The notes under the pieces: generated by a model
What the model was told of the DNA's origin: nothing
Seen by the model: the letters and a program-made list of their open reading frames with translations, nothing else
The model's database searches: none
In this document: positions 5,512-23,072 of the stretch, piece by piece
How the letters are laid out: each line of letters starts with the position of its first letter
How positions within the stretch are numbered: position 1 is the stretch's first letter
Translations under genes and position numbers: made by a program
From: Muribaculaceae bacterium
GTDB taxonomy: Bacteria > Bacteroidota > Bacteroidia > Bacteroidales > Muribaculaceae
Length of the DNA: 39,019 nt
Assembly: GCA_029051525.1 (NCBI GenBank)
Contig: JAIDKG010000004.1
Location: forward strand, 1-39,019
Reading direction: 5' to 3'

Positions 5512-6111
5512 TTAAAAATCATATTTCAGCAATTCGGCAATCCGCTCAGAGAGAGGCAGGATAAGAGCCGGGTCGAGATTGAGGAGCACCTCATCGTCGG
5601 CATCATAGCGCGGCAAGGCCACATAATTGGCCTCCAGCGGAGTGGCAGCGGTGGGCGGCCCGAAGCGGAGCGTGGCGCCCGAATCGCGGTGCATGATCCG
5701 CAGCCAAGGGCGCAGCCTCTGCGAGGCCAGCCATCCCGGAGCCATCTCCCCCAGAGCCACACGCAGCGGATCGGCCGCATAATCCTCCGATAGAGTGGCG
5801 CCCCAACCCTCCAGCCGCAGCGAATGCAAGCGGCAGAAATCCTCCGGCAGATCCACCTCGGCATATCCCTCCTCACCCCAATCGGTATTGACCCGGATAT
5901 GTTGGCGCATATCGCTGAGGGTAGAGAAATGGGCCAAAGGCAACTCCTGGGTAAGGCTGCAGGCCACCGGCTCCATCAGCACAGCCACCATCTCCCGAAG
6001 AGAGGTGCCTGCCCGCGCCGAGGGGGAGAGGGAGAGCCGGCATTCCGGGAATTGATCCAGGCGTAGGCCCACCAGATCGGAGATCTCCCGCAGTGTGGCA
6101 CCCTGCTTCAT
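5512..6111 (-). CDS. Putative phage head/head-tail-connector-type protein (199 aa)
   Basis: A 199-residue soluble protein starting MKQGATLREISDLVGLRLDQ and ending ERIAELLKYDF. I do not recognise a named family. It has no signal peptide or membrane segment, and is rich in Leu, Arg and acidic residues. Its ATG overlaps the stop of the 71-residue gene (ATGA), so the two are translationally coupled. It is the last gene of the leftward capsid arm, the position often held by head-completion or connector proteins. That role is inference from position only. The stop lies about 55 nt from the rimP promoter with no terminator between, so readthrough into rimP is possible. Confidence 0.6.
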   Translation of the reverse strand: MKQGATLREISDLVGLRLDQFPECRLSLSPSARAGTSLREMVAVLMEPVACSLTQELPLAHFSTLSDMRQHIRVNTDWGEEGYAEVDLPEDFCRLHSLRLEGWGATLSEDYAADPLRVALGEMAPGWLASQRLRPWLRIMHRDSGATLRFGPPTAATPLEANYVALPRYDADDEVLLNLDPALILPLSERIAELLKYDF

Positions 6112-6323
6112 AGCAGGCGGATGCGCTGCGACCGGTAATGCTGCGACCGCTCGATGAGGCGTTGCATCACAGGGTCGTCGGTAGAATAGGTAGCCGGGCG
6201 GATGCCGAATCCTGAGAGTTGGCCGCCGGTGAAATGCACATCCACAGAGGTGCCACCCACCGGGATGCGGGCCAGATATTCCATCAGGCCATAGATGGCA
6301 TAAGTCTTCATATTGCGTTTCAT
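6108..6323 (-). CDS. Small phage-type protein of unknown function (71 aa)
   Basis: A 71-residue protein beginning MKRNMKTYAIYGLMEYLARI; a second ATG at codon 5 could be the true start. It contains GGTSVDVHFTGG and SGFGIRPATYSTDDPVMQRL, which look like short beta strands joined by glycine turns, followed by a basic C-terminus (SQHYRSQRIRLL). Its stop overlaps the start of the 199-residue gene by 4 nt. It lies downstream of the capsid gene across a 59-nt gap that holds a tandem repeat. Small proteins directly after capsid genes are often capsid decoration or head-joining proteins, but nothing here proves that. Confidence 0.55.
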   Translation of the reverse strand: MKRNMKTYAIYGLMEYLARIPVGGTSVDVHFTGGQLSGFGIRPATYSTDDPVMQRLIERSQHYRSQRIRLL

Positions 6324-6330
6324 ATTATTT

Positions 6331-6374
6331 CAGTTTTGCGCCGGGGCGCGTTCTCAGTTTTGCGCCGGGGCGCG
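6331..6374. repeat. Two-copy tandem repeat with short hairpins, 24-bp period
   Basis: A 20-bp sequence (6331-6350) is repeated exactly at 6355-6374 after a 4-bp spacer. Each copy contains GCGCC-GG-GGCGC, a small inverted repeat. It fills the gap between the end of the capsid gene and the small 71-residue gene, so the polycistronic mRNA would carry two adjacent GC-rich hairpins there. Confidence 0.8.
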
Positions 6375-6382
6375 GGAGGATG

Positions 6383-7852
6383 TTATCCCTCCACGCGCTG
6401 CCAGCGGATTACCTCCTTGAGATCGGCACCCGTGCCGATTTTTACCTTCTCGCCGGTCCAGATCTGACCCATTTTGGCCTCATTGCTCATCTCCGGGCAA
6501 TCGCAGAGCAGGTAGAACTGCTTCTCGGCCTGATCATCATCCGGTGCCGTTGTGGAATCCCACATCATAATCGTGGTGTCGCCCGGGGCGCCACCCTCGC
6601 CATCGATCCAGATATGGCACGACCCCTTCAGGGCCACGGCGTCCCAGATCAGTATGCCGTTGCGGGTGGCCTCCTCGCCCCCCACTCGGTCGGAGAAGGA
6701 ATGTTCGGCCGAATACACATAATGCACCAGACGGTCTTCGCCGATCAGTGCGCCGGAATTGCTCCAGCCGAGTCGGTCGAGGGTGGGCTCACGCTTGATC
6801 TCGATATCACCGAATACGGTGTGGAAATTGGTCACCACCCACCCCATGGAATTCTGCTTGGTAGTGATCTGAATCTCCGGATGAGCCGAATAGTCGATAC
6901 ACTGTATCTGCTCCAGAAGATTCTTACCCGCCAGCAGGAGAGCCGTCTTAGGCACATCCTCGCCGGTGAAGAACATCTTGGCCAGACCTATGATACGCTC
7001 CACCGTCCAGCGCCCCGAATGCTGCAGCTCACGCTTGAACTGCCAGCGCAGGCCCTCGGTGGTATAGATATACTGCATCCCCATCTTCGGCACATTCACC
7101 TTGAACTTCCCCGGGCGCCCTGCCCAGAGGGTGCGATTGCCGCGCACCTTGAAATTGGCGATTGCTTGCTCCGCGATAACCGCCTTCGAGAAGGGGAGAC
7201 GCTTGCGCTGCGACTCGAAATAGTCGCTCACCACCTGATTCATGCCGCGCTTCTGAAGGTACACCCTCGAAGGCTGGGGCACGATGATATCGGGGTCGAC
7301 CTCCTTCTGGGTCTCATAGAGCGAATTGGCCAGGATGGTCACTGTGGTGCCCCCCGGAATACGCGGCACGGTGGTAAACTCATCCGAGGCGTTATTGCGC
7401 GGACCGTTGATAGAGCGCACGATAGGATTATTGGTGGTGGGATCATGGTCGACCACGAAGAGCATCAGCCACTTTCCCGGGGTGATGGTGGAGCCATCCT
7501 CGGAATAGCCATTCACGCCGTGCACGAGCAGAGTGCTGTAGGGACGCACGATATTCTGCTGGTTGGCCTCCAGAGGGAGCACTACCTGGGTCTGAGTGGT
7601 GGCATTGACAGCCGATATGGTCTTGAGCGAAGCGATCGGCTCGTCGATCATGAAATGGTCTACCTCCGGCGAATTGACCTTCACGCGCTTGGCGCGGAGC
7701 ATGAGGTTCATCAGCGGGGTGTCGTCGGAGTTGAATCGGAAGAGCTGCTCATCGATTTCAGTCTCCACGAAGTGTCCGGCGTCGATACCGCCGGTAGCGT
7801 TGGCAAGGGCCGATACAGTGGCCGGAGTGCCGGGTTGGTTTGATTTGTTCAT
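6383..7852 (-). CDS. Phage major capsid protein, SU10-like / HK97-fold candidate
   Basis: A 489-residue protein with no signal peptide, starting MNKSNQPGTPATVSALANAT. The N-terminal part has ETEIDEQLFRFNSDDTPLMN followed by RAKRVKVNSPEVDHFMIDEP (about 50-72), resembling the N-terminal region of SU10-type podovirus capsid proteins. The middle holds segments such as GTTVTILANSLYETQK and KFKVNVPKMGMQYIYTTEGL. The C-terminal part (GRWTVERIIGLAKMFFTGED onward) resembles the axial domain of HK97-fold capsids. The length suits an HK97-fold subunit. It lies directly downstream of an acidic scaffold-like gene, the usual order. The ATG is preceded by a weak GAAGAGA. The assignment rests on general resemblance, not on a search. 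Confidence 0.72.
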   Translation of the reverse strand: MNKSNQPGTPATVSALANATGGIDAGHFVETEIDEQLFRFNSDDTPLMNLMLRAKRVKVNSPEVDHFMIDEPIASLKTISAVNATTQTQVVLPLEANQQNIVRPYSTLLVHGVNGYSEDGSTITPGKWLMLFVVDHDPTTNNPIVRSINGPRNNASDEFTTVPRIPGGTTVTILANSLYETQKEVDPDIIVPQPSRVYLQKRGMNQVVSDYFESQRKRLPFSKAVIAEQAIANFKVRGNRTLWAGRPGKFKVNVPKMGMQYIYTTEGLRWQFKRELQHSGRWTVERIIGLAKMFFTGEDVPKTALLLAGKNLLEQIQCIDYSAHPEIQITTKQNSMGWVVTNFHTVFGDIEIKREPTLDRLGWSNSGALIGEDRLVHYVYSAEHSFSDRVGGEEATRNGILIWDAVALKGSCHIWIDGEGGAPGDTTIMMWDSTTAPDDDQAEKQFYLLCDCPEMSNEAKMGQIWTGEKVKIGTGADLKEVIRWQRVEG

Positions 7853-7888
7853 TCTCTTCAGATAATAGGATTTAGTTTGTTTCGGCGG

Positions 7889-8668
7889 TTATCGTGCCAT
7901 TTCGGCCAGGTCGAAGATTGATGTCGCACTGCGGCGCGAGCGGGCTATCGGTGTGCCGGCCAGATCAGGGGCTCCCACCGGGGGAGCCACGAGTTGCTCC
8001 TCGATCACGGCATTTCGACCGGCAATCTCCCCCTCGGCGCGAGCCACCTTGATAGCCTCATAAGCCTTGGCGGCATCCATGAGGGGTATGAAGCGGTCGG
8101 CCGGGAGTCGGCCGGTGAGGAGTCCCATCACCAGGCCGAGCAGAATCACCGCGAGATTCTCGCGTCGCTCCAGGAGTCCTTCCGGGGTGAGCGGCACCCC
8201 ACCCGAAGTCAGGAACCGCTCTGCGAATCGCGATCCCCCTTCAGCATCCGGATTATCCATCTGATCGGGTTGCGGCTCTTGCGGGTGGTCGGGGTCGGCA
8301 TCACCTCCGGGTTCTCCCTCTCCGTCGGGTTGAGGGTCGTCGGGTTCTCCTGAAGGAGGGTTTTCTCCGCTTCCGTCAGTTCCTGACTCTCCTGTACCGG
8401 CGGTGTCGGATCCATCGGGCTCACCGGTGGTTGATCCTGCCCCGGACTCACCGGCAGGAGGCGCAGTATCAGCTGAATCAGCTGCATCGCCCGGGTCAGA
8501 GTGCGCACCATCTGAGGTGAGGCCCCCTTGCGGGTGAGCCACCTCACTGCCATCAGCAGCAAGCGCTGCCGCAGCGCTGAGCTCTTCAGCAGTCGCTGCA
8601 AGAGCTGTCGGCATTTCTGCCGGAGGGACTGTAGTGAAGTCGGATTCTTCATTGCGTCGTGTCTCCAT
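7889..8668 (-). CDS. Acidic, low-complexity phage scaffold-like protein
   Basis: A 259-residue protein, first in the leftward arm and just upstream of the capsid gene, the usual place for a scaffolding protein. Residues about 15-60 are Ala/Glu-rich. Residues about 60-150 are a highly acidic Gly/Ser/Asp/Pro/Thr-rich stretch expected to be disordered. Residues about 160-235 look helical (LLERRENLAVILLGLVMGLL, then PLMDAAKAYEAIKVARAEGE). A basic tail contains ARSRRSATSIFDLAEMAR. A disordered acidic middle and a short basic helical C-terminus are typical of scaffolds that bind capsid subunits. No protease motif is seen. The function is inferred from position and composition. A long overlapping frame on the same strand (8209-8652) is taken as a shadow. 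Confidence 0.6.
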   Translation of the reverse strand: METRRNEESDFTTVPPAEMPTALAATAEELSAAAALAADGSEVAHPQGGLTSDGAHSDPGDAADSADTAPPAGESGAGSTTGEPDGSDTAGTGESGTDGSGENPPSGEPDDPQPDGEGEPGGDADPDHPQEPQPDQMDNPDAEGGSRFAERFLTSGGVPLTPEGLLERRENLAVILLGLVMGLLTGRLPADRFIPLMDAAKAYEAIKVARAEGEIAGRNAVIEEQLVAPPVGAPDLAGTPIARSRRSATSIFDLAEMAR

Positions 8669-8744
8669 AATTTTTTGAGGTTAAATAATAGTTAATGATG
8701 CTTTGATTGTCAATGCGTTGAATAATTCTCCGCTAACGACACTG

Positions 8745-8752
8745 CAAAATTA
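8745..8752 (-). promoter_or_regulatory. Promoter -7 box for the leftward capsid arm
   Basis: The minus strand reads TAATTTTG, matching TAnnTTTG, 76 nt upstream of the scaffold-like ATG at 8668. No good -33 TTTG lies at the expected 18-21 nt spacing. The surrounding 275-nt divergent region is AT-rich and has no convincing gene. Confidence 0.5.
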
Positions 8753-8799
8753 CCACGAAAAAAGTCAATGATTATCGTAAGTGTTGACAAAAATTTGAT

Positions 8800-8807
8800 T
8801 AACTTTG
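8800..8807 (+). promoter_or_regulatory. Promoter -7 box for the rightward packaging arm
   Basis: The plus strand reads TAACTTTG, an exact TAnnTTTG match, 136 nt upstream of the 161-residue gene. A TTGAC-like sequence lies upstream, but only 13 nt away. A 6-bp hairpin, GCCTGC/GCAGGC at 8858-8876, lies in the resulting leader. With the -7 box at 8745-8752 it forms a divergent pair about 50 bp apart. Confidence 0.5.
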
Positions 8808-8943
8808 CGGCAGGAAAATAAAAGCAACGCTTAGGTTTAATAATAAGCCACTCCATTGCCTGCCGATTCCGCAGGCTGGGATTATTATCCTGCAAATCGC
8901 AAACCGACAACAAATTAATACATCAATCTAAAAGACATACATT

Positions 8944-9429
8944 ATGAAAAAACAAGGAAGTGTATGCGACTACACAGCAGCACGCAATGCCGAACTCGTG
9001 AGAAACTTCAACGCTGCTATACGCGCAGCTAAAATACTGGATCTCGACAAAATCTGTGGCGAGGTAGCCAACTCACCCGCCAGTCGCTTCTTCATCTCCG
9101 AAGAGCGAGCCTACGAACTCATCATCGCCCGCCGCCGCCGCGGGCACTGGACCATCAGCATCCCCCTGCGTGTGGAGATGATTGAGGAGATAGAGCGCAG
9201 AGCCGAGAGCAGACTGAGGAGCGGCAAAGCCGCCACCCTCCGCGATGCCGTGCATGAAGCGGTCAATTCCCCCGCCCCCCGATTCTATCTCACTCCGCGC
9301 AGTTGTCGCACCCTCGTGTATGCCACAATCCATGAATCGCACATGCGCCGCCTGCGCGAGCGTATAGAGAATGCGAAAACCGCTCTTATCTCCGCCCACA
9401 CCACAACCCCAACCTCCCCCAACCGATGA
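8944..9429 (+). CDS. Internally duplicated protein preceding terminase; possible small-terminase analogue (161 aa)
   Basis: A 161-residue basic protein starting MKKQGSVCDYTAARNAELVR. It contains a motif twice: EVANSPASRFFISEERAYEL (about 40-59) and EAVNSPAPRFYLTPRSCRTL (about 102-121). Each copy is followed by a basic helical segment (ARRRRGHW in the first, HMRRLRERIENAK in the second). I do not recognise a named family. Its stop overlaps the ATG of the large terminase gene by 4 nt (CGATGATT), so the two are translationally coupled. A small basic protein in this position is often the small terminase subunit, which recognises DNA; here that is inference. Confidence 0.62.
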   Translation: MKKQGSVCDYTAARNAELVRNFNAAIRAAKILDLDKICGEVANSPASRFFISEERAYELIIARRRRGHWTISIPLRVEMIEEIERRAESRLRSGKAATLRDAVHEAVNSPAPRFYLTPRSCRTLVYATIHESHMRRLRERIENAKTALISAHTTTPTSPNR

Positions 9430-11510
9430 TTACCTCCCATCACGACATACTCGCTGCCGATGCTCGCCGCATGGAGGAGCTGGGCAGGCCGGTCGATCCC
9501 ATCACCGGGCTCAACTCCGTAGGCGAGCGATTTCCACTCCATCTGTCGGACTGTCTGCTCGGCTGCCAATACCTTCCGGTGGCCATGCGCACCGACCCGC
9601 TGATCGACACGCTGCTGGCCACCGGATCGGTGGCCGAGACCGCCCGCCGGTTTCACCTCACCCCCGACGAGACCATCGACCGGATGCTGCGTCTGCGGCT
9701 GCGCCACGATTTCCCCTTCTGGGCCGCCCTAACCGCCCTGATAAAATGCAAAGGGGGTGGAGCCGACGTGCACTTCCGCCTCAACAGGCCGCAGCGATCT
9801 CTCGTGGAGAGTTTCGAGCGCGCCCGGGTGGCCGGTCAGCCCATACGCATCATCCTCCTGAAAGCACGCCAATGGGGTGGCAGCACCTGCACCCAATTAT
9901 ACATGGCCTGGCTCCAGCTCATGCACAGCATCGGACTCAACTCCCTAATCATCGCCCATCAAGGGGCCGGGTCGGATGAGATCAAAGATATGTTTGACCG
10001 CATGATAGGAGCCTACCCCCTCCAACTACTCTACACCCCCGCGCAACTCAAAGAGTTGCGCGGCGATCCCGCCAAAATCCGCAAAATGGAGGGGGTGGGG
10101 CGGAGCGGAGCCATATTCCGGGTGCCACAGCGCAACTGCAAGGTAAAGATAGGCACCGCCGAGCGTCCCGACTCATGTCGCGGAGGCGACTACAACCTCG
10201 TGCACCTCTCCGAGGTGGGGATATGGCGTGCCACCGACGGGAAATCGCCCGAAGACATAGTGCGCAGCGCCTGCGGCGGTGTGCTTCTCAAGCCCCTCAC
10301 CATGATAGTCTACGAAAGCACCGCCAATGGCACCGGCAACTTCTTCCATCGCGAATATCTCGCCGCCTCGCGCGGTGAATCGCAATTCCGCCCCCTCTTC
10401 ATCAGCTGGTATCAGATCGACACCTACACCCTCCCTCTTACTCCCGAAGAGCGCGAGGCGCTCGCCCTGCGCATCTGGGAAGGGCGCGAATCGGATGCCG
10501 AGACGGCCCGAAGCGTTTCCGGCCGATATCTATACTCCCTATTCGAGCGCGGCGCCACACTCGAGGCCATCAACTGGTATATCGCCGAGCGGATGAAATA
10601 TAACGACAATGCCCGCATGGCCGCCGAATATCCCACCGATGATGTGGAGGCCTTCGCCCATTCAGGTTGCCGCGTGTTTGACCGCTACGATGTGGAACGA
10701 CTGCGCGAGGGTTGCCGCGACCCTCAGCTCTGCGGCGATGTGGTATCGGCCGCCGGCGACACCGGAGCCGAATCGCTCGAATCGCTCCGCTTCAATCCGT
10801 CGCCCGGCGGCGGGATGCAGATATGGAGCACTCCGGCCGCCGACGGCATGAGCCACCGTTACCTCGTGGTGGTCGATGTGGGTGGCCGCTCGGCCAAAGC
10901 CGACTGGAGTGTGATCACAGTCATAGACCGCGGTCCGATGGCCGACGGCAATCCCCCCGAGATTGCCGCCCAATGGCGTGGCCATTGCGACACCGATCTC
11001 CTGGCATGGCGCGCAGCCCGCATCGCCACCTACTACGACCGGGCACTGCTCGTGGTGGAGAGCAACACTCTCGAGACCCGCGAGCGCGACCGTGGAGTAG
11101 ATGAAGGACAGATGCCCTACATCCTGCTTCAGATCCGCGACGCATATCCCAATCTCTACATGCGCGCCGGGAGCGCCGAGAATCTGCGCGAACAGAGCCG
11201 GTGGAAACTCGGCTTCCACACCAACACCGTAACCAAACCGATGGTGATAGCCACCCTGGTGAGAGTGGTGCGCGACGCTCTATATGTGGAGCGCTCGCAG
11301 GAGGCACTCGATGAGTTGATCAGCTACGAGCGCCGCGACAACGGCAGCTACGGAGCCATAGCCGGAGCTCACGATGACATGCTGATGACCCGCGCCATCG
11401 GTCTGCACATCGCCCTCCATGAGATGGAGCCGCCGCGCCGACCGGTGGCCCGATCTGACGCGCGGCGTGTGAGGCGCAGAGACCGACCCATGTCGGAAGC
11501 CACATTCTGA
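9426..11510 (+). CDS. Phage terminase large subunit (ATPase-nuclease)
   Basis: A 694-residue protein. An N-terminal segment (about 62-92, LLATGSVAETARRFHLTPDE) resembles a helix-turn-helix. The ATPase domain has a Walker-A-like LKARQWGGSTCT at 145-156 and a Walker-B-like YNLVHLSEVG near 258. It also has VYESTANGTGNFFHREYLAA (about 297-316), a terminase-like coupling segment. The nuclease domain is RNase-H-like: RYLVVVDVGGRSAKADWSVI (about 478-497), then LLVVESNTLE, then AGAHDDMLMTRAIGL near the C-terminus, together giving the usual acidic triad. Such enzymes cut concatemers and pump DNA into procapsids through the portal. All key motifs appear intact although the rest of a phage is absent. 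It overlaps the preceding gene by 4 nt and is followed by the portal gene after 65 nt. Confidence 0.85.
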   Translation: MITSHHDILAADARRMEELGRPVDPITGLNSVGERFPLHLSDCLLGCQYLPVAMRTDPLIDTLLATGSVAETARRFHLTPDETIDRMLRLRLRHDFPFWAALTALIKCKGGGADVHFRLNRPQRSLVESFERARVAGQPIRIILLKARQWGGSTCTQLYMAWLQLMHSIGLNSLIIAHQGAGSDEIKDMFDRMIGAYPLQLLYTPAQLKELRGDPAKIRKMEGVGRSGAIFRVPQRNCKVKIGTAERPDSCRGGDYNLVHLSEVGIWRATDGKSPEDIVRSACGGVLLKPLTMIVYESTANGTGNFFHREYLAASRGESQFRPLFISWYQIDTYTLPLTPEEREALALRIWEGRESDAETARSVSGRYLYSLFERGATLEAINWYIAERMKYNDNARMAAEYPTDDVEAFAHSGCRVFDRYDVERLREGCRDPQLCGDVVSAAGDTGAESLESLRFNPSPGGGMQIWSTPAADGMSHRYLVVVDVGGRSAKADWSVITVIDRGPMADGNPPEIAAQWRGHCDTDLLAWRAARIATYYDRALLVVESNTLETRERDRGVDEGQMPYILLQIRDAYPNLYMRAGSAENLREQSRWKLGFHTNTVTKPMVIATLVRVVRDALYVERSQEALDELISYERRDNGSYGAIAGAHDDMLMTRAIGLHIALHEMEPPRRPVARSDARRVRRRDRPMSEATF

Positions 11511-11575
11511 GCAGTGCCGGAATTTTTTCAAAAAAAAGAACAATCACCGAACCAATACGAATTTCGATAGTAACC

Positions 11576-13066
11576 ATGAGTGAAAAATGCAATATCGATG
11601 CCACGCGCACCGATTTCGATACCCTCTCGGCCGCCGCATCCCACTGGAGCGCAATGGCCGACTTCCGCAGCCAACGCGAACGCTGCAAACGCTACTGCTA
11701 CGGCCGCCAGTGGGACGATATGATCCGCGTAGAGGGGCGCATGATGCGCGAAGAGGACTACATCCGTAGCCAAGGCAACATCCCGCTGAAAAACAATCTG
11801 ATACGCCGCATGGTGAGAAGTGTGCTCGGTGTGTTTCGCAATCAGTATGCCTATCCCGCCGCCGAGCGTCTCGACCTCCCTACGCATGGGGCTGCCGCCG
11901 AGGCATTCTATGGCCGCCTCACCGACAATGCCCGCTACAACCGCATGGAAGAGCTGCATGCCCGCACCATGGAGGAATTTCTGATTTCCGGACTGGCGGT
12001 GCATCGCAAGAGCACCGCCGGCGCCATGCTCGGCCGCCGTCCCGGCGACCGTATGGCCGGTTATCTGCGCACCGATTATGTGGCCCCCGACACATTCTTC
12101 CTCGATGTGGCCACACGCGACTTCCGCGGCTGGGATGTGAGGATGGTAGGGCAGACCCACGACCTCGACTTCACCTCCCTCTGCGGTGCGCTGGCCCGCA
12201 ACGAGGCCGATTGCCGTGCTCTGCGTGAGATATATCTGGCCCAGTCGGCTCCCGGAGCCGGTTCGGCCATCGGGGCCGGAGGATTCGGCACAGTGCGCAA
12301 TTCCCCTCATGGGGATTTCCTCTCACCTTCGGCTCCCGGGCTATGCCGTGTGATCGAGGTATGGACCCGCGAGAGCTGCGAGCGCTACCGCGTGCATGAC
12401 CGCGCGGCCGGACGCATCTACAAAGTGGATGCCTCCATGCGCGACTCCCTGCCGCGTGGCGCCGAGCCGATGTGGATGCTCGATGAGGAATGGCATTACC
12501 GATATCTCTCACCTTCCGGTCACGTGCTCGCCGAGGGAATCTCGCCGCTCCCCGGCGGCGGACACCCCTACGTGTGGAAAGCCTATCCATTTATCGACGG
12601 CGAGATACATAGTTTCGTGGCCGATGTAATCGACCAGCAGCGCCACACCAACCGCCTGATTACACTCTACGACTGGGTGCTCCGCTCCACAGCCAAGGGT
12701 GTGCTCCTCTTCCCCGAATCGGCTCTCCCCGATGGGGTGGAAATCGACGACATCAGCGAGGAATGGAGCCGCTTCAACGGTGTGATACTCTTCCGCCCCA
12801 AGGCGGGAATGCCGCTGCCGCAGCAGGTATGCGGCAATGCCTCACAGGTGGGCATCACCGATCTGCTCGACATACAGCTGAAGATGTTTGAGGATGTGAG
12901 CGGTGTGACCGGAGCCTTGGAGGGTAAACTCACCAGCGGCGCCGTGAGCGGCACCCTCTACAACCAGCAGACGCGTCAGGCCATGACCGCCCTGCTCGAC
13001 ATTCTGGAGAGCTACAACAGTTTCATCCTCGAGGGAGCCATCCTCGATGCGCGCCTTCTCTCCTGA
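11576..13066 (+). CDS. Phage portal protein, possibly shortened at the C-terminus
   Basis: A 496-residue protein that would form the DNA-entry ring of the capsid. The N-terminal part has RERCKRYCYGRQWDDMIRVE and GNIPLKNNLIRRMVRSVLGV, typical of P22/SU10-type portals. The middle has DVIDQQRHTNRLITLYDWVL (stem region). Near the end comes GVTGALEGKLTSGAVSGTLY then NQQTRQAMTALLDILESYNS, the usual late-stem motif. The frame stops 14 residues later, whereas such portals normally continue with a wing or C-terminal helical region, giving about 600-700 residues. Neither other forward frame carries a long continuation before the terminator. It could be a truncation or a naturally short form. It is the last gene of the rightward arm and converges on the capD-like gene. 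Confidence 0.75.
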   Translation: MSEKCNIDATRTDFDTLSAAASHWSAMADFRSQRERCKRYCYGRQWDDMIRVEGRMMREEDYIRSQGNIPLKNNLIRRMVRSVLGVFRNQYAYPAAERLDLPTHGAAAEAFYGRLTDNARYNRMEELHARTMEEFLISGLAVHRKSTAGAMLGRRPGDRMAGYLRTDYVAPDTFFLDVATRDFRGWDVRMVGQTHDLDFTSLCGALARNEADCRALREIYLAQSAPGAGSAIGAGGFGTVRNSPHGDFLSPSAPGLCRVIEVWTRESCERYRVHDRAAGRIYKVDASMRDSLPRGAEPMWMLDEEWHYRYLSPSGHVLAEGISPLPGGGHPYVWKAYPFIDGEIHSFVADVIDQQRHTNRLITLYDWVLRSTAKGVLLFPESALPDGVEIDDISEEWSRFNGVILFRPKAGMPLPQQVCGNASQVGITDLLDIQLKMFEDVSGVTGALEGKLTSGAVSGTLYNQQTRQAMTALLDILESYNSFILEGAILDARLLS

Positions 13067-13155: not shown

Positions 13156-13210
13156 AAAAGCATCAGCCCATACATCTGTAATGGTCAGACGTATGGGCTG
13201 ATATGCTTTT
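13156..13210. terminator. Bidirectional intrinsic terminator between convergent genes
   Basis: AAAAGC plus ATCAGCCCATAC (13156-13173) pairs with GTATGGGCTGAT (13191-13202) and GCTTTT (13205-13210), with a 2-nt AT bulge and a 17-nt loop. That gives 12 bp plus 6 bp of stem flanked by A and T runs on both sides, so it can stop transcription from the portal (plus) and from the capD-like gene (minus). It marks the right border of the phage-derived island. Confidence 0.82.
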
Positions 13211-15492: not shown

Positions 15493-17208
15493 CTAAGGTA
15501 TAACGCATTTCAATAGCCCGGGGTTCACGCCTATGGTCGCATTCTTTGGGGTGGCACGCAGAATAGCCATGCCGTGAGTATCCGACGGGAGCATCCGGCT
15601 GAGGTCGGTGAGGCTTTCCCCCTCGCTGAGGGTGGTGGTGAGCAGGGTTGTGCCATCGGGGAGAATCGCTTCCAGTACGGCCCCTCCGGCCGGTGCCAGG
15701 CAACGCAGGGTCAGCCCCGAGAGCGACATCGGCACCGCGCCTGCGTGGCGGTCGGCCTCCACACCCTTCACGCCAACCGAAATCTGGTAATCCCAATGCT
15801 TGCGGGCATCAATCCAGAGGGCGTTGTGGCGCAGATTATAGCGCAGTTGGGCCACCTTCTCCTCAAGAGTGTAATTCTCCTCCGGCCAACGGAGTGTGTT
15901 GGCCCGGTCGGCTTCGAGATAAGTGGCCTCGATATCATCGATGAAATCGAATATCTCCGAGTAGCGCCCCTTGAAGAAGGTATCCCATTCCTGCACGAAA
16001 GCATCATTGAGCCTGGCCGACATTCTCATGAAAGGGATCCAGTTGAGAATCGACCAGCGGCCGTAGTCCCAGATCCAATCCGACTTGGGGTCTGACCATA
16101 TCTCAAGATCCCACATCGGCCCGGCCACCCAGATATCCGAGCCCAGATTGCGATGGAAGTACTGGCTGCCCGAATAGCCGTCGACATCATGGAGCAATTC
16201 GCGTATCACCATATAGCGCGCTATCGACCGGATATCGAAATGATCCGTCCAGTCGTCGTCGGGATGAAACAGAGGGTTCTCGATGAGGTCGTTGAGGTAG
16301 GTGAATTCCTGAGTGAGCCAATCGAGCTGCTGCTGCGAGAGGAGTTCAGGTTCTTTGTAGGTGACACGCAGCCGCCCCACCTTATTCTGAGCAGGAATTG
16401 AAATCTGGTATTCATCATCCTGATTGTCGAGTTCTACGAGCCAACCGGAGCTTACCGTCTCGGGATCGTCCGACTCCTCCTCCTGCACGGTGATATCCAG
16501 TCGGTTGGAATCAATCTTGATCGACTCCACGAGCAGGTATATCCCGCGGTATTCCCCATTGAGCACCACTTCCACCGGCTCCATGCGCGGCACCCACACC
16601 GGCTGCACCAGTCGGCTCACCTGCATCCCCACGAGCGGGGCGAGCCACATCGAGGTGTAGAAAGGGTCGTAGCATATCAGGGCGTAATGCTTGTTTTTCG
16701 GCATCGCCAGCACCGATGTCTTCTTCGAGAATTTCAGTTTATATGCTTTTTTCGGGAGGTTATACCAGGTGTGATTACCTCGTCCGCGGATTTCGAGGCT
16801 CACCGGAGAGAGAGCCGATCCCAGAGCTTCCCAACGATTCTGCCCCTCCGGCACATCGAGCCAGCACCCGGCATCGATATAATTGATTTTATCGAGGATA
16901 GGGCGCAGTTGATCGGTATTGATATGCAGAGTGGGGATGGTGCCCGAGGCCATGGTGTAGGGCCATTCGGGATGCACCGGGATCCCCCCCGGGCCGAGAG
17001 CGACAGTATCGACCGGCACGCTGTCGGGAGCTGCGGTATCCGATAGTACAGGCTCCTCATCGGGCGAAGAGGGGAAATCCTCGCTGCTCCGCGAGGCGAT
17101 TGCCATCGGAGAGCAGAGGAGAATCATGAGGGCAAGGAATATGTAAAGAAGCGATTTCAAGAGAGAAGGCAGTTTATCTATATAAGAGAAAAATTTCTCA
17201 ATCTCCAA
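15493..17208 (-). CDS. CotH-family atypical protein kinase-like exported protein
   Basis: A 571-residue protein. A hydrophobic N-terminal segment (about 14-39, LPSLLKSLLYIFLALMILLC) suggests export or membrane anchoring. CotH motifs are SLEIRGRGNHTWYNLPKKAY (family: R-G-R-G-N, then K-K-x-Y), VVLNGEYRGIYLLVESIKID, LLHDVDGYSGSQYFHR and AGPMWDLEIW (family: G-P-x-W-D-x-D). In spore-coat CotH the corresponding residues bind ATP and metal. A beta-rich C-terminal tail (about 495-571) follows. The start appears to be TTG at 17208, overlapping the GH3-like stop by 11 nt; no ATG occurs before codon 28, which would destroy the signal. CotH proteins in this phylum are of unknown role, and whether it phosphorylates a surface protein is unknown. 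It is the last gene of the glycan operon. Confidence 0.82.
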   Translation of the reverse strand: MEIEKFFSYIDKLPSLLKSLLYIFLALMILLCSPMAIASRSSEDFPSSPDEEPVLSDTAAPDSVPVDTVALGPGGIPVHPEWPYTMASGTIPTLHINTDQLRPILDKINYIDAGCWLDVPEGQNRWEALGSALSPVSLEIRGRGNHTWYNLPKKAYKLKFSKKTSVLAMPKNKHYALICYDPFYTSMWLAPLVGMQVSRLVQPVWVPRMEPVEVVLNGEYRGIYLLVESIKIDSNRLDITVQEEESDDPETVSSGWLVELDNQDDEYQISIPAQNKVGRLRVTYKEPELLSQQQLDWLTQEFTYLNDLIENPLFHPDDDWTDHFDIRSIARYMVIRELLHDVDGYSGSQYFHRNLGSDIWVAGPMWDLEIWSDPKSDWIWDYGRWSILNWIPFMRMSARLNDAFVQEWDTFFKGRYSEIFDFIDDIEATYLEADRANTLRWPEENYTLEEKVAQLRYNLRHNALWIDARKHWDYQISVGVKGVEADRHAGAVPMSLSGLTLRCLAPAGGAVLEAILPDGTTLLTTTLSEGESLTDLSRMLPSDTHGMAILRATPKNATIGVNPGLLKCVIP

Positions 17209-20159: not shown

Positions 20160-20867
20160 TCAAGAATTGGCTTGCATCGCCTCCTCGGCGCGGCACCAGT
20201 CGGCCGGCGTGTCGAGGTCGATGCTTCGGGTGGAGGGCATCTCCACCGGTATGATGTGGCGCAGGCGTGAGATCTCCTCCTTGGCAATTGCCTTGGCATT
20301 GATCACATACACCGCCCCATTGAATTCCCATACCTTCGGGGCATCCTGGCGGCGCGTGTAGTGGCCGTCGCCCTTCGAGATGTGGAGAAATCCCATCTCA
20401 TCGGTCTCGAATGCGGAATAGTAGGGATTGGTGCGGGCTTCGCACACTGTGACTGCCATATCCACCTCACGGCCACAGCGCTGCGCCTCCTCATAGGCGG
20501 CTATGGCGCGGCTGATGTCGGAGGGGAGGCGCATCGGCGAGGTGGGCTGCAGGAGCACCACTGCATCGTAATGCACACCAAGGCGCTCCATGCTCTCGAG
20601 CGCGTGGAGTATGGCGAGTCGGGAGGAGGCCGTGTCGGAGGCCAGTTCGGCCGGACGCATGAAAGGCACCGAAGCACCTTCGATTCGCGCCACGGCGGCG
20701 ATTGCCTCATCATCGGTGGTCACTACTACATCGGCTGCATCGGCCACGGCCAGAGCCTGGCGGATGGTATGGCCTATAAGAGGAACGCCGCATAGCGGCT
20801 TTATGTTTTTACCCGGTATCCCCTTACTGCCGCCGCGGGCGGGGATGAGGTAGAGGTATCTGTACAT
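20160..20867 (-). CDS. neuA: CMP-nonulosonic acid cytidylyltransferase (NeuA/LegF-like)
   Basis: A 235-residue cytidylyltransferase that activates a nonulosonic acid with CTP to give the CMP-sugar. The N-terminus has YLYLIPARGGSKGIPGKNIK (about 5-22), the CTP-binding A-R-x-G-S-K signature. Further motifs are VVLLQPTSPMRLPSDI, NPYYSAF, TRRQDAPKVWEFNGAVYVI and the metal-binding RSIDLDTPADW near the C-terminus. The motif set separates it from KdsB. It follows neuC by 13 nt and precedes the MATE gene by 4 nt. Whether the substrate is N-acetylneuraminic or legionaminic acid is not certain; the R-R-Q-x-A-P stretch resembles LegF/PtmB enzymes as I recall them. Confidence 0.9.
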   Translation of the reverse strand: MYRYLYLIPARGGSKGIPGKNIKPLCGVPLIGHTIRQALAVADAADVVVTTDDEAIAAVARIEGASVPFMRPAELASDTASSRLAILHALESMERLGVHYDAVVLLQPTSPMRLPSDISRAIAAYEEAQRCGREVDMAVTVCEARTNPYYSAFETDEMGFLHISKGDGHYTRRQDAPKVWEFNGAVYVINAKAIAKEEISRLRHIIPVEMPSTRSIDLDTPADWCRAEEAMQANS

Positions 20868-20880
20868 CGTTTCCTATGTG

Positions 20881-22044
20881 TTATGTTGTGGCCTCGGGCG
20901 CTCCGGGGGGATAGGTGTGGAAGTGCTTGGAGGGGTATGGATGGAAGTGGGAGGAGAGTATCGTGCGGGTCATCACCCCGGGGGTGTCGGGGTGGTGATA
21001 GGGGTTGATGCGCCTGGCGGCGAGTTGCTGCATGGAGGGGGAGAGGAGCTGCTCCAGTGCGGCGGCGATTTCGGGGCGAGAGGTGCCGCAGTGTATCACG
21101 GAGGGGCCATGTTCGCGTCCCGACTGGCGGGTGCCGATATCCACCGCCGGGGTGCCGAGCGACGGCACCTCCACCAGCGCACTTGAGCTATTGCCCACCA
21201 CGCCGCGTGCCAGGGCCACAGCCGAAAGATAGCGCACTCTACCCAGCGATGGGATCACCAGCGCGCGCCCCTTCATCCGGGCGGCGAAGTCATGGAGCGA
21301 GGCGATGAGGGGAGCCGGATCCACATCACTGTTGGGATAGGTGAGAATCATCCGCATCGGCTCAGGAAGTGCTTCCAGAGCTGCGAGCATATTCTCCTGC
21401 ACTTCAAGCGGATTGCCATCGGCCAGAGTAGCGGCATGGAGGGTGACTACCAGGAAATCGGTGCCCGGATCCCAGCCGCCGAGTGATGCAGTGAGAGCCT
21501 CGCGGTGCATCAGACTGACGGTCATGGTATTGCTCACCCCCAATGCTCCGGCTGTGACTACCCGCGCCGGGTCTTCCCCCATGCGGAGCAGACGCTCCGC
21601 GCAGGCCCGGGTCTCCGGGAAATGCAGTGTGGCCATCTTGGTGATGGCATGGCGCACCGAATCATCGAAAGCTCCTTCCGAGACTGTGCCTCCCGCCACA
21701 TGCACCACCGGCACTCCACATAGCAGCGCCGCCGAGGCCACACCCAGCATCTCGCAGCGGTCGCCGAGTATCACCAGCGCATCGAGCGCATGGCGCGGGA
21801 GCGCATCGGCAAATCCTGCCGCAGCCATAGCCATGATCCGGGCGGCGCTCCCTTCGGCCGGGATACGCTCGGCCGGTGTGAAACCGTCGGCTATGATTTC
21901 GGCCACGGTATCGCCCATATCGGGCATAAGATGCTGATGGGTGGCGAATACCCTGATCTCGGCCCCATGCTTGCGCAGCGATGAGGCGAGGGGCTGGAGC
22001 AATCCCCAGTCGGCGCGTGTGCCGGTGGCAATCCCGATTCTCAT
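20881..22044 (-). CDS. neuC: Hydrolysing UDP/GDP-sugar 2-epimerase (NeuC/LegG-like), altered active-site loop
   Basis: A 387-residue GT-B-fold epimerase that inverts C2 of an NDP-HexNAc and releases NDP, giving the ManNAc-type precursor for NeuB. It starts MRIGIATGTRADWGLLQPLA. Conserved features are LGDRCE (Asp95), HVAGGTVSEGAFDDSVRHAI (115-134), VTLHAATL (His203), LTYPNSD, and GNSSSALVEVPSLGTPAVDI with the following TRQSGRE. The loop usually reads G-G-E (or G-G-D), but here Glu is replaced by Thr120; in characterised NeuC/SiaA enzymes this Glu is catalytically important. The downstream Asp127/128 remain. Its ATG overlaps the neuB stop by 4 nt. The last 30 or so residues are His/Pro-rich and look like a lineage-specific tail. 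Confidence 0.88.
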   Translation of the reverse strand: MRIGIATGTRADWGLLQPLASSLRKHGAEIRVFATHQHLMPDMGDTVAEIIADGFTPAERIPAEGSAARIMAMAAAGFADALPRHALDALVILGDRCEMLGVASAALLCGVPVVHVAGGTVSEGAFDDSVRHAITKMATLHFPETRACAERLLRMGEDPARVVTAGALGVSNTMTVSLMHREALTASLGGWDPGTDFLVVTLHAATLADGNPLEVQENMLAALEALPEPMRMILTYPNSDVDPAPLIASLHDFAARMKGRALVIPSLGRVRYLSAVALARGVVGNSSSALVEVPSLGTPAVDIGTRQSGREHGPSVIHCGTSRPEIAAALEQLLSPSMQQLAARRINPYHHPDTPGVMTRTILSSHFHPYPSKHFHTYPPGAPEATT

Positions 22045-23072
22045 ATCTCTATGAGTTGGTCGGTGTCGAAGTCGGCGATGGCGGGGGTGCCGATCACCTT
22101 ATCCCAAAGCATGGGCGACACTCCATTGCCGGGGCGCTTCACCGTGATATTCTCTTCTGTCAGTATCTCACCCTTGCTGATGGGGCGCAGAGCCACGATG
22201 CTCTTGCGGGCCACCACCATATTGGGTTGCTCCGAGGGGCTCACCTGCTTGTGGCCGTGACCCAAGGCGGCATCGATATTTCGGATAGAGCTTACGAGCA
22301 GTCGCAGCTCATGCGGCTCGATCGAGGCCTTATGGTCAGGCCCCGGCAGTGAGCGGGAGAGGGTGAAATGCTTCTCCACCACCTCGGCTCCGAGAGCCGC
22401 GGCGGCGAGGCTCACCTCAATGCCTTGTGTATGATCCGAATAGCCCACACGCACACCCAGACGGTCGCGGATTTCGAGCATCGCGCGGAGATTCACATCG
22501 GTGTAGGGGGTGGGGTACTGGGTGTTGCAGTGCAGCACGATGATGTCATCGCGTGTGAGTGAGGATTGCGAGGGATAGTCGGGATGGGAGCCGGTGAGAA
22601 TCTTCACGGCATCCTCCACCTCATCGAGGGTGGCCATGCCGCATGAGAGTATCACCGGGCGGCCGGTAGCGGCTATGCGGCGCAGATAAGGAAGATTGGT
22701 AATCTCACCGCTCGGCACCTTGAACCAGTCCTGTCCCAGCTCGGCCAGAAGCTGAATCGACACAAGGTCGAACGGAGTCGACATGAATCCGATTCCCACC
22801 TCCTCACACAGGGCCTTGAGTCCGGCATAATCGGAGAGGGGAAGATGTATGGCCTTGCACATTTCCAGCTGCGACTGGGCGCTCCCTGTGGTCTCCTTCT
22901 GATATTCCGCCTTCGGGGCATAGGTGGAGATCACCAATTCCGGCACAGCGGTCTGGAATTTCACATAATCGGCGCCTGCCTCTTTGGCTTTGAGCACCAT
23001 CTCTCGGGCCATGGCGAGGTCGCCGTTGTGATTGACGCCTGCCTCGGCTATGATAATGGTATGTTTCTCCAT
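22041..23072 (-). CDS. neuB: Nonulosonic acid synthase (NeuB; LegI-like features)
   Basis: A 343-residue enzyme condensing a 6-carbon 2-acetamido sugar with phosphoenolpyruvate to form a nine-carbon acid. The TIM-barrel domain (about 1-280) has AEAGVNHNGDLAMA, KFQT, FMSTPFD, KVPSGEITNLPYL, LHCNTQYPTPYTDVNLRAM, GYSDHT, EKHFTL and GPDHKASIEP. The C-terminal SAF (antifreeze-like) domain (about 285-343) contains VARKSIVA and KRPGNGVSPM. Compared from memory with E. coli NeuB (AEIGCNHNG, SGELLNLPYL, DHLAS), the residues AEAGVNHNG, SGEITNLPYL and DHKAS match legionaminate synthases better. It overlaps neuC by 4 nt and follows the ATP-grasp gene by 82 nt. Confidence 0.92.
   Translation of the reverse strand: MEKHTIIIAEAGVNHNGDLAMAREMVLKAKEAGADYVKFQTAVPELVISTYAPKAEYQKETTGSAQSQLEMCKAIHLPLSDYAGLKALCEEVGIGFMSTPFDLVSIQLLAELGQDWFKVPSGEITNLPYLRRIAATGRPVILSCGMATLDEVEDAVKILTGSHPDYPSQSSLTRDDIIVLHCNTQYPTPYTDVNLRAMLEIRDRLGVRVGYSDHTQGIEVSLAAAALGAEVVEKHFTLSRSLPGPDHKASIEPHELRLLVSSIRNIDAALGHGHKQVSPSEQPNMVVARKSIVALRPISKGEILTEENITVKRPGNGVSPMLWDKVIGTPAIADFDTDQLIEI

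Follow-up and report, generated by a model that had tools for sequence, protein, structure and literature searches.

A phage-derived capsid and DNA-packaging block retained beside rimP in Muribaculaceae, probably part of a gene transfer agent

Seven open reading frames in two divergent arms occupy positions 5512–13066 of the window (the whole 39,019-nucleotide stretch of Muribaculaceae DNA analyzed here), between rimP and a capD-like gene. We conclude that this block probably supplies the capsid and the DNA-packaging machinery of a system that derives from a phage and has been retained by its host, likely a gene transfer agent (GTA); a tail gene is predicted at another place in the same genome. 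The best reading of the source of this dispersed, GTA-like system is a podovirus of the P22/SU10 type. The leftward arm runs from a scaffold candidate through the major capsid protein (MCP) and h71 to an adaptor, and the rightward arm from g161 through the large terminase (TerL) to the portal. The names rimP and capD are our assumption from the sequences of the flanking genes; the gene, motif, nozzle and promoter-box names, presumed in part at the outset, were then compared with search results. The reading frames bear out the layout given in a first-pass annotation, that of seven open genes in two arms between rimP and a glycan-type gene. The features are as follows.

5512–6111, minus strand: SU10-type head–tail adaptor, at the far end of the capsid arm; Pfam SU10_adaptor match at E 5e-5, below the Pfam cut-off
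6108–6323, minus strand: h71, small head gene; family c6, with 49 members in islands and phages
6383–7852, minus strand: major capsid protein; homology and a profile match to a solved capsid
7889–8668, minus strand: candidate scaffold protein, encoded immediately ahead of the capsid gene; member of family c4, which also occurs in phages
8745–8752, minus strand: -7 promoter box toward the capsid arm; TAnnTTTG with matching spacing, in 10 of 10 species
8764–8788, between the promoters: dyad-like candidate operator; inspection by eye showed TCAA...TTGA arms in nine of the ten species
8800–8807, plus strand: -7 promoter box facing the terminase arm, present in all ten species
8944–9429, plus strand: g161, candidate small terminase by position, overlapping the TerL start; phrog_27246, function unknown
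9426–11510, plus strand: large terminase; phrog_2, ATPase and nuclease motif residues intact, profile match to T4 gp17
11576–13066, plus strand: portal, short form without the C-terminal end; P22_portal at 5e-23, profile positions 7–428 of 594
13162–13202, between the converging portal and capD ends: inverted repeat, candidate bidirectional terminator; 17-nt arms, 94% complementary, 7 nt apart

The capsid, terminase and portal identities proposed in the first-pass annotation were upheld by the P22_portal match, by matches of TerL and the portal to PHROG head-and-packaging families, and by PF17236, which we take to be the SU10-type capsid protein and which is precomputed on many of the 120 listed among 1519 capsid homologues. 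The capsid profile also matched 9in6, a solved 'major capsid of VP1' (2e-7), and the portal profile matched three solved portals. The adaptor follows the capsid gene at the same place in phages and islands, and the phage homologues of h71, at about 145–260 aa, are longer than h71. The candidate scaffold protein, which matched nothing in Pfam and nothing clearly in PHROG, was assigned this role by its position. Likewise, g161 is a putative small terminase from its position; its predicted model is all-helical (pLDDT 94.5) and had no PDB match at E <= 0.001. Residues K146, R148, E263, D484, E545, D650 and D651 of TerL, which we presume to belong to the ATPase and nuclease motifs, were invariant among 34 aligned sequences. 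In class-2 islands (L093, L095, L096 and L203), the TerL match covers the ATPase part only, in frames of 306–551 aa, and loss or divergence of the nuclease part are candidate readings; in other genera, TerL matches nearly end to end among the matches listed. A 67-aa frame at 8710–8913 overlaps the promoter region and was rejected as a gene. Rfam and tRNA scans of the window gave no matches. An exact 21-nt direct repeat, with two copies 24 bases apart, lies between h71 and the capsid gene (window 6330–6374).

The first-pass annotation had proposed comparing the rimP–capD interval across relatives, computing dN/dS for the capsid and terminase, and looking for the block elsewhere. In a genus sample of 111 genomes, rimP was found in 94, and the ten closest by rimP are the window genome (G000), G021, G065, G081, G080, G073, G007, G017, G035 and G066. 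Head genes directly adjoin rimP in all ten, with the block split over two contigs in G021 and G017. The capD gene lies at the other end in eight of them; the G007 contig ends there, and capD of G066 was not seen in the fetched stretch. Head genes were found at none of 33 more distant rimP loci, several of which are cut by contig ends.

Between G021 and G065, dN/dS was 0.041 for MCP, 0.057 for the portal and 0.098 for TerL; the other block genes gave 0.059 (h71), 0.118 (g161), 0.186 (adaptor) and 0.350 (scaffold candidate), and the host genes 0.059 (rimP), 0.045 (capD) and 0.019 (nusA). Island dS (0.50–1.06) was set against a host range of 0.59–0.72. Among G000, G021 and G065, values for MCP, portal and TerL were 0.04–0.14, and they reached 0.13–0.21 for the more distant pair G080–G081; synonymous sites are saturated in several distant pairs. 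The scaffold candidate (0.28–0.42) and the adaptor (up to 0.66 in other pairs) evolve fast. Apart from TerL of G019, which runs into a contig end, the block frames compared between species are full length; this is the informative part, since freedom from stops follows from choosing open frames. Stops were flagged in some capsid matches; those of G081 and G073 precede the open frame. Purifying selection thus maintains the block genes in the ten-species clade.

To compare descent, we set a host tree (NusA plus RimP, 54 genomes) beside a portal tree (65 rows, midpoint root). Both contain the rimP-site clade, {G020 plus the rimP-site clade}, {G036,G099,G101}, {G013,G071,G015,G116,G131} and {G026,G062}; G080, G011 and G088 are placed differently. 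Distances correlated with host distances for the portal (r 0.70, 37 genomes), TerL (0.75, 26) and MCP (0.80, 21), each with a permutation P of 1e-4 and class-2 rows left out. Vertical descent is thus well supported at the tips, as judged from these trees, and the common site in ten species together with the correlations of 0.70–0.80 indicates that the block is inherited with its host, within the genus that the trees cover. Class-2 portals form one clade and class-2 hosts are split in the host tree, where deep branches are weak. The first-pass annotation had held that related complete prophages would count against its view of the block. Such prophages exist in the genus. Their portals are a single clade that the tree draws inside the island portals: 14 phage and prophage portals group with support 100, beside a 15-row island group (support 84). 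Given this placement, the tree is compatible with one domestication or with several, and the genes may have been domesticated repeatedly or exchanged with phages.

The two arms share a back-to-back promoter region, present in all ten species, from which both could be regulated. Its boxes conform to TAnnTTTG, which we assume to be the -7 promoter consensus, and lie 54–56 bases apart in the ten rimP-site species; shuffling gave an expectation of 0.02–0.50 such boxes per strand. Dyad symmetry of the candidate operator fell below 0.05 relative to shuffles in only four of ten species and was 0.24 in G000. A weight matrix was built from capsid-arm promoters, trained each time without the genome in question and compared with 645 background sites; 4 of its 25 training sites are prophage copies, the relatives are not independent, and the box used for G065 differs from the conserved one. 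Among 35 portals that stand first in a run, 16 with a -7 box were scored and 19 without one were not. Eleven of the 16 ranked at or under 0.05 of the background sites; with the four prophage copies left out, nine of 12 lay in the top 5%. These scores suggest that a promoter element is shared between the capsid arm and separately transcribed portals. A repressor-like gene adjoins some islands (G016, G022, G033, G061 and G092), and one such gene, when scanned, matched CI/LexA-type families. At L081, L083, L189 and L205, two or three related small genes (about 150–220 aa) accompany a repressor-like gene beside the head genes; one of them, when scanned, matched phrog_19255, and such small genes also occur in prophages.

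As stated in the first-pass annotation, no integrase is present among the frames of the block (frame list, Pfam and PHROG). Its further description of the island as lacking tail and lysis genes is correct locally, where the frames include no lysis gene, but fails genome-wide: G000 carries a nozzle-family frame on C42, found by a profile match, and amidases on C54 and C132. Together with the adaptor in the block, the C42 frame is a candidate for the encoded tail and delivery parts. The nozzle family occurs in 77 of 111 genus genomes, G000 included and prophage copies counted. The predicted fold of one member, a class-2 relative from G018, matched T7- and P22-type tail proteins best, with propellers unrelated to phages ranking close behind; membership of the C42 frame rests on the profile match. 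A protein search with the nozzle profile returned 34 matches, and a PDB sequence search with it returned nothing useful. The G000 amidases are unlinked to the block; they, and amidases of the clade more generally, are perhaps of prophage origin. In 13 genomes, an amidase lies within 1.5 kb of the capsid gene, and in five of these a candidate holin gene, so labeled from position and hydrophobicity, lies between adaptor and amidase. The candidate holin had no family match, and neither G000 nor G065 yielded a copy. No gene for a fibre or a receptor-binding protein was identified.

We also compared the block with phages of the genus, using 44 IMG/VR loci (L021–L064) and prophage regions in G007, G061, G119, G131 and others. 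Like the block, these SU10/P22-like phages carry homologous capsid, TerL, portal, adaptor, g161 and scaffold candidate, and several have the nozzle family. Beyond the genes of the block, the prophages taken together have fibre-like genes, genes with a CotH domain, one resembling T7 gp14, and very long frames. The first-pass annotation had contrasted the two arms with full prophages whose head genes run in one direction, a contrast that does not hold here: in most of the 44 loci, too, TerL and g161 point away from scaffold and capsid, and the portal is reversed (exceptions: L045, L046, L050 and L054). An island and a prophage-type copy occur together in G007 and in G021. In the G061 prophage region (L192), one open frame of >6600 residues lies beside the prophage portal. 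In the window, the frame adjoining the capD-like gene (15493–17208) is, we presume from its sequence, CotH-like; a related prophage has a CotH domain in one of its tail-region genes. The glycan gene run adjoining the block includes frames at 20160–23072 that, from their sequence starts, we take to resemble a sialic-acid-type synthesis set (neuA, neuC, neuB).

Alignment A3 showed that all 27 aligned island portals stop in the same zone, five of them retaining about 45 more residues, and that six aligned phage portals, 648–680 aa in length with the C-terminal end kept, extend about 100–140 residues beyond this point. In the P22 portal, the crown spans residues 525–600 and the barrel residues 600–725, according to the available text of PMC5290284; that of PMC4992974 proposes parts of the barrel as binding sites for ejection proteins and describes the final 50 residues as dispensable. 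By analogy, the crown and barrel would be absent from island portals. The T7 gp14-like gene of a genus prophage (PF24072, 24.8 bits, cut-off 27) has no counterpart in the block. At least nine genomes (G007, G021, G061, G070, G081, G090, G097, G119 and G131) have a prophage-type portal frame of at least 620 aa, and each also lists a short portal. The missing portal end, together with the lack of ejection-protein and fibre genes in the block, suggests that DNA delivery differs from that of the ancestral phage.

The term 'orphan' used in the first-pass annotation proved inapt, as relatives occur genus- and family-wide. Good genomes were those with a completeness of 90% or more and a contamination of 5% or less, and the genus and family tallies count prophage copies too. 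In the genus, the portal was found in 87 of 111 genomes (45 of 46 good ones) and MCP in 87 of 111 (43 of 46). In the family, the portal was found in 358 of 397 genomes (212 of 222 good ones) and TerL in 181 of 198 (133 of 140), each in 29 of 30 genera, with the TerL match missing in 17 of the 198. Around loci chosen by TerL or portal, the seven window families each recur in 19–50 host genomes, whereas 11 such genomes have the family that comes next. In several genomes, the portal gene is not linked to TerL; the two lie, for example, at 180 and 2731 kb on contig C1 of G189 and at 1073 and 1307 kb in G257. At L271 and L277, the locus read has a portal only, and at L274 and L278 a portal with one small gene in the adaptor position. 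In the order, 22 of 295 genomes had a portal match, 18 of them outside the family: 17 long frames (622–724 aa) and one fragment. The G057 portal lies among frames resembling host genes; that of G712 lies 4–7 kb from genes related to the pair beside TerL of G057 (L281, L282, L090). The gene pairs at L281 (G712) and L090 (G057) are homologous (206/208 aa and 680/864 aa) and stand close to a long portal or next to TerL; they are candidate ejection-type genes with no clear family match.

These observations allow several explanations to be weighed. A decaying prophage remnant might be expected to show a shortened portal, a block without integrase and fibres, and a fast-diverging adaptor and scaffold; but full-length open frames, dN/dS of 0.04–0.14 for MCP, portal and TerL, host-like dS and a truncation zone common to 27 of 27 island portals make this reading scarcely credible. 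Recent decay, one of two possibilities raised in the first-pass annotation, was rejected on the selection data and the common truncation, and the other, retention, is favored by the same site in ten species, the full-length frames, the low dN/dS and the distances that follow the host. A complete prophage would have integrase, replication, tail and lysis genes contiguous with the head genes, a layout that the block does not have. The earlier suggestion of a satellite found no support, and a phage satellite of the capsid-forming PICI type, making its own heads and borrowing tails, is very improbable. The block has its own capsid, terminase and portal and no fibres, potential helper prophages are present, and some islands have a CI/LexA-like repressor gene as a neighbor. 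Yet such a satellite would be a mobile unit with integrase and att site, and here the frames of the block include no integrase, no direct repeat flanks both outer ends (among 20 of 41 repeat families), the closest species give no sign of mobility, and several genomes carry portal and TerL at separate places; the conserved site and host-tracking distances led us to reject it.

An anti-phage device, in which the short portal and small head proteins poison the assembly of related SU10-type phages infecting the genus, is unlikely. Related prophages do occur in the genus, all aligned island portals are shortened, and h71 is shorter than its phage counterparts, but a poison needs no catalytic TerL residues (here invariant), scaffold candidate, nozzle or linked lysis genes, and G007 and G021 carry an island together with a related prophage-type copy. 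We give an equally small chance to a capsid-only compartment serving storage or another cell function after packaging was abandoned. The portal-only and portal-plus-one-gene loci of the family and the absence of delivery genes from the block would suit such a role; against it, 133 of 140 good family genomes have a TerL match, elsewhere in the genome and with prophage copies included, and most of the listed matches cover nearly the full protein, and lysis genes are linked in relatives.

The gene transfer agent lead of the first-pass annotation was right in kind, with packaging itself a prediction. As in GTAs, the structural and packaging genes derive from a phage, the genes lie at several loci, and the structural locus has no integrase or replication genes. 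A GTA would further have a small terminase that lacks a DNA-binding domain, a role for which g161 is the candidate, and particles with host DNA in pieces too short to cover the entire gene set. In the cycle that we propose, the common promoter region, whose boxes were observed, would fire both arms; scaffold, capsid and portal would assemble a procapsid, into which TerL, with its motif residues in place, and the candidate small terminase would load host DNA. The adaptor and the nozzle encoded elsewhere, both found as genes, would seal the head with a short tail. An amidase and a candidate holin, linked in relatives and tentatively assigned in G000, would lyse the producer, and the packaged DNA might then be transferred. 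Tentatively, as a possibility short of a probable one, we propose a GTA lineage throughout Muribaculaceae and the domestication of relatives of the podovirus ancestor in several Bacteroidales families; in Muribaculaceae, the inner end of the portal and the ejection proteins would have been lost together and the delivery route thereby altered.

If this is a true GTA, almost all of the genera sampled in a leading gut family contain a gene-exchange machine. Even without transfer, selected phage head genes at one place in ten species, with family-wide relatives, call for explanation. Most of the genomes are metagenome assemblies, and the genes are also present in records titled as isolates, Muribaculaceae bacterium Isolate-036 and Isolate-037 (Harlan); packaging and transfer are therefore directly testable.

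Capsid-forming PICI satellites carry their own head and packaging genes and have no tail genes in the block; the present block differs from them in its lack of an integrase, its conserved site and its dispersed relatives. Well-studied GTAs are few and mostly alphaproteobacterial, and FpGTA added a gut case in Bacillota, according to the accessible part of PMC12946183. No description of a GTA in Muribaculaceae or another Bacteroidota was found among the titles and abstract openings listed for open-access PubMed Central, a scope that excludes preprints, and the available part of PMC10892684 contains nothing on such a system. RcGTA-type agents of Alphaproteobacteria, and GTAs in general as outlined in the accessible text of PMC11841831, resemble the present system in that structural and packaging genes of phage origin are spread over several loci and pass down with the host. 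The system differs from the RcGTA type in its podovirus-type portal, adaptor and nozzle, in its host phylum, and in that transfer is predicted. By description, the nearest precedent would be FpGTA I/II of Faecalibacterium, which form particles of about 40 nm with 8.4–8.9 kb of host DNA. Operon I was present in all twelve Faecalibacterium genomes examined, and a podovirus-like type was suggested (PMC12946183, same part). The host there is a member of Bacillota and particles were observed, whereas here the genes alone are. FpGTA resembles the block in that one compact operon encodes the head proteins TerS, TerL, portal, scaffold and capsid, for the first and fourth of which the block has candidates, and some strains have a second locus with tail and lysis genes, comparable to the dispersed candidate genes described here (PMC12946183, as excerpted).
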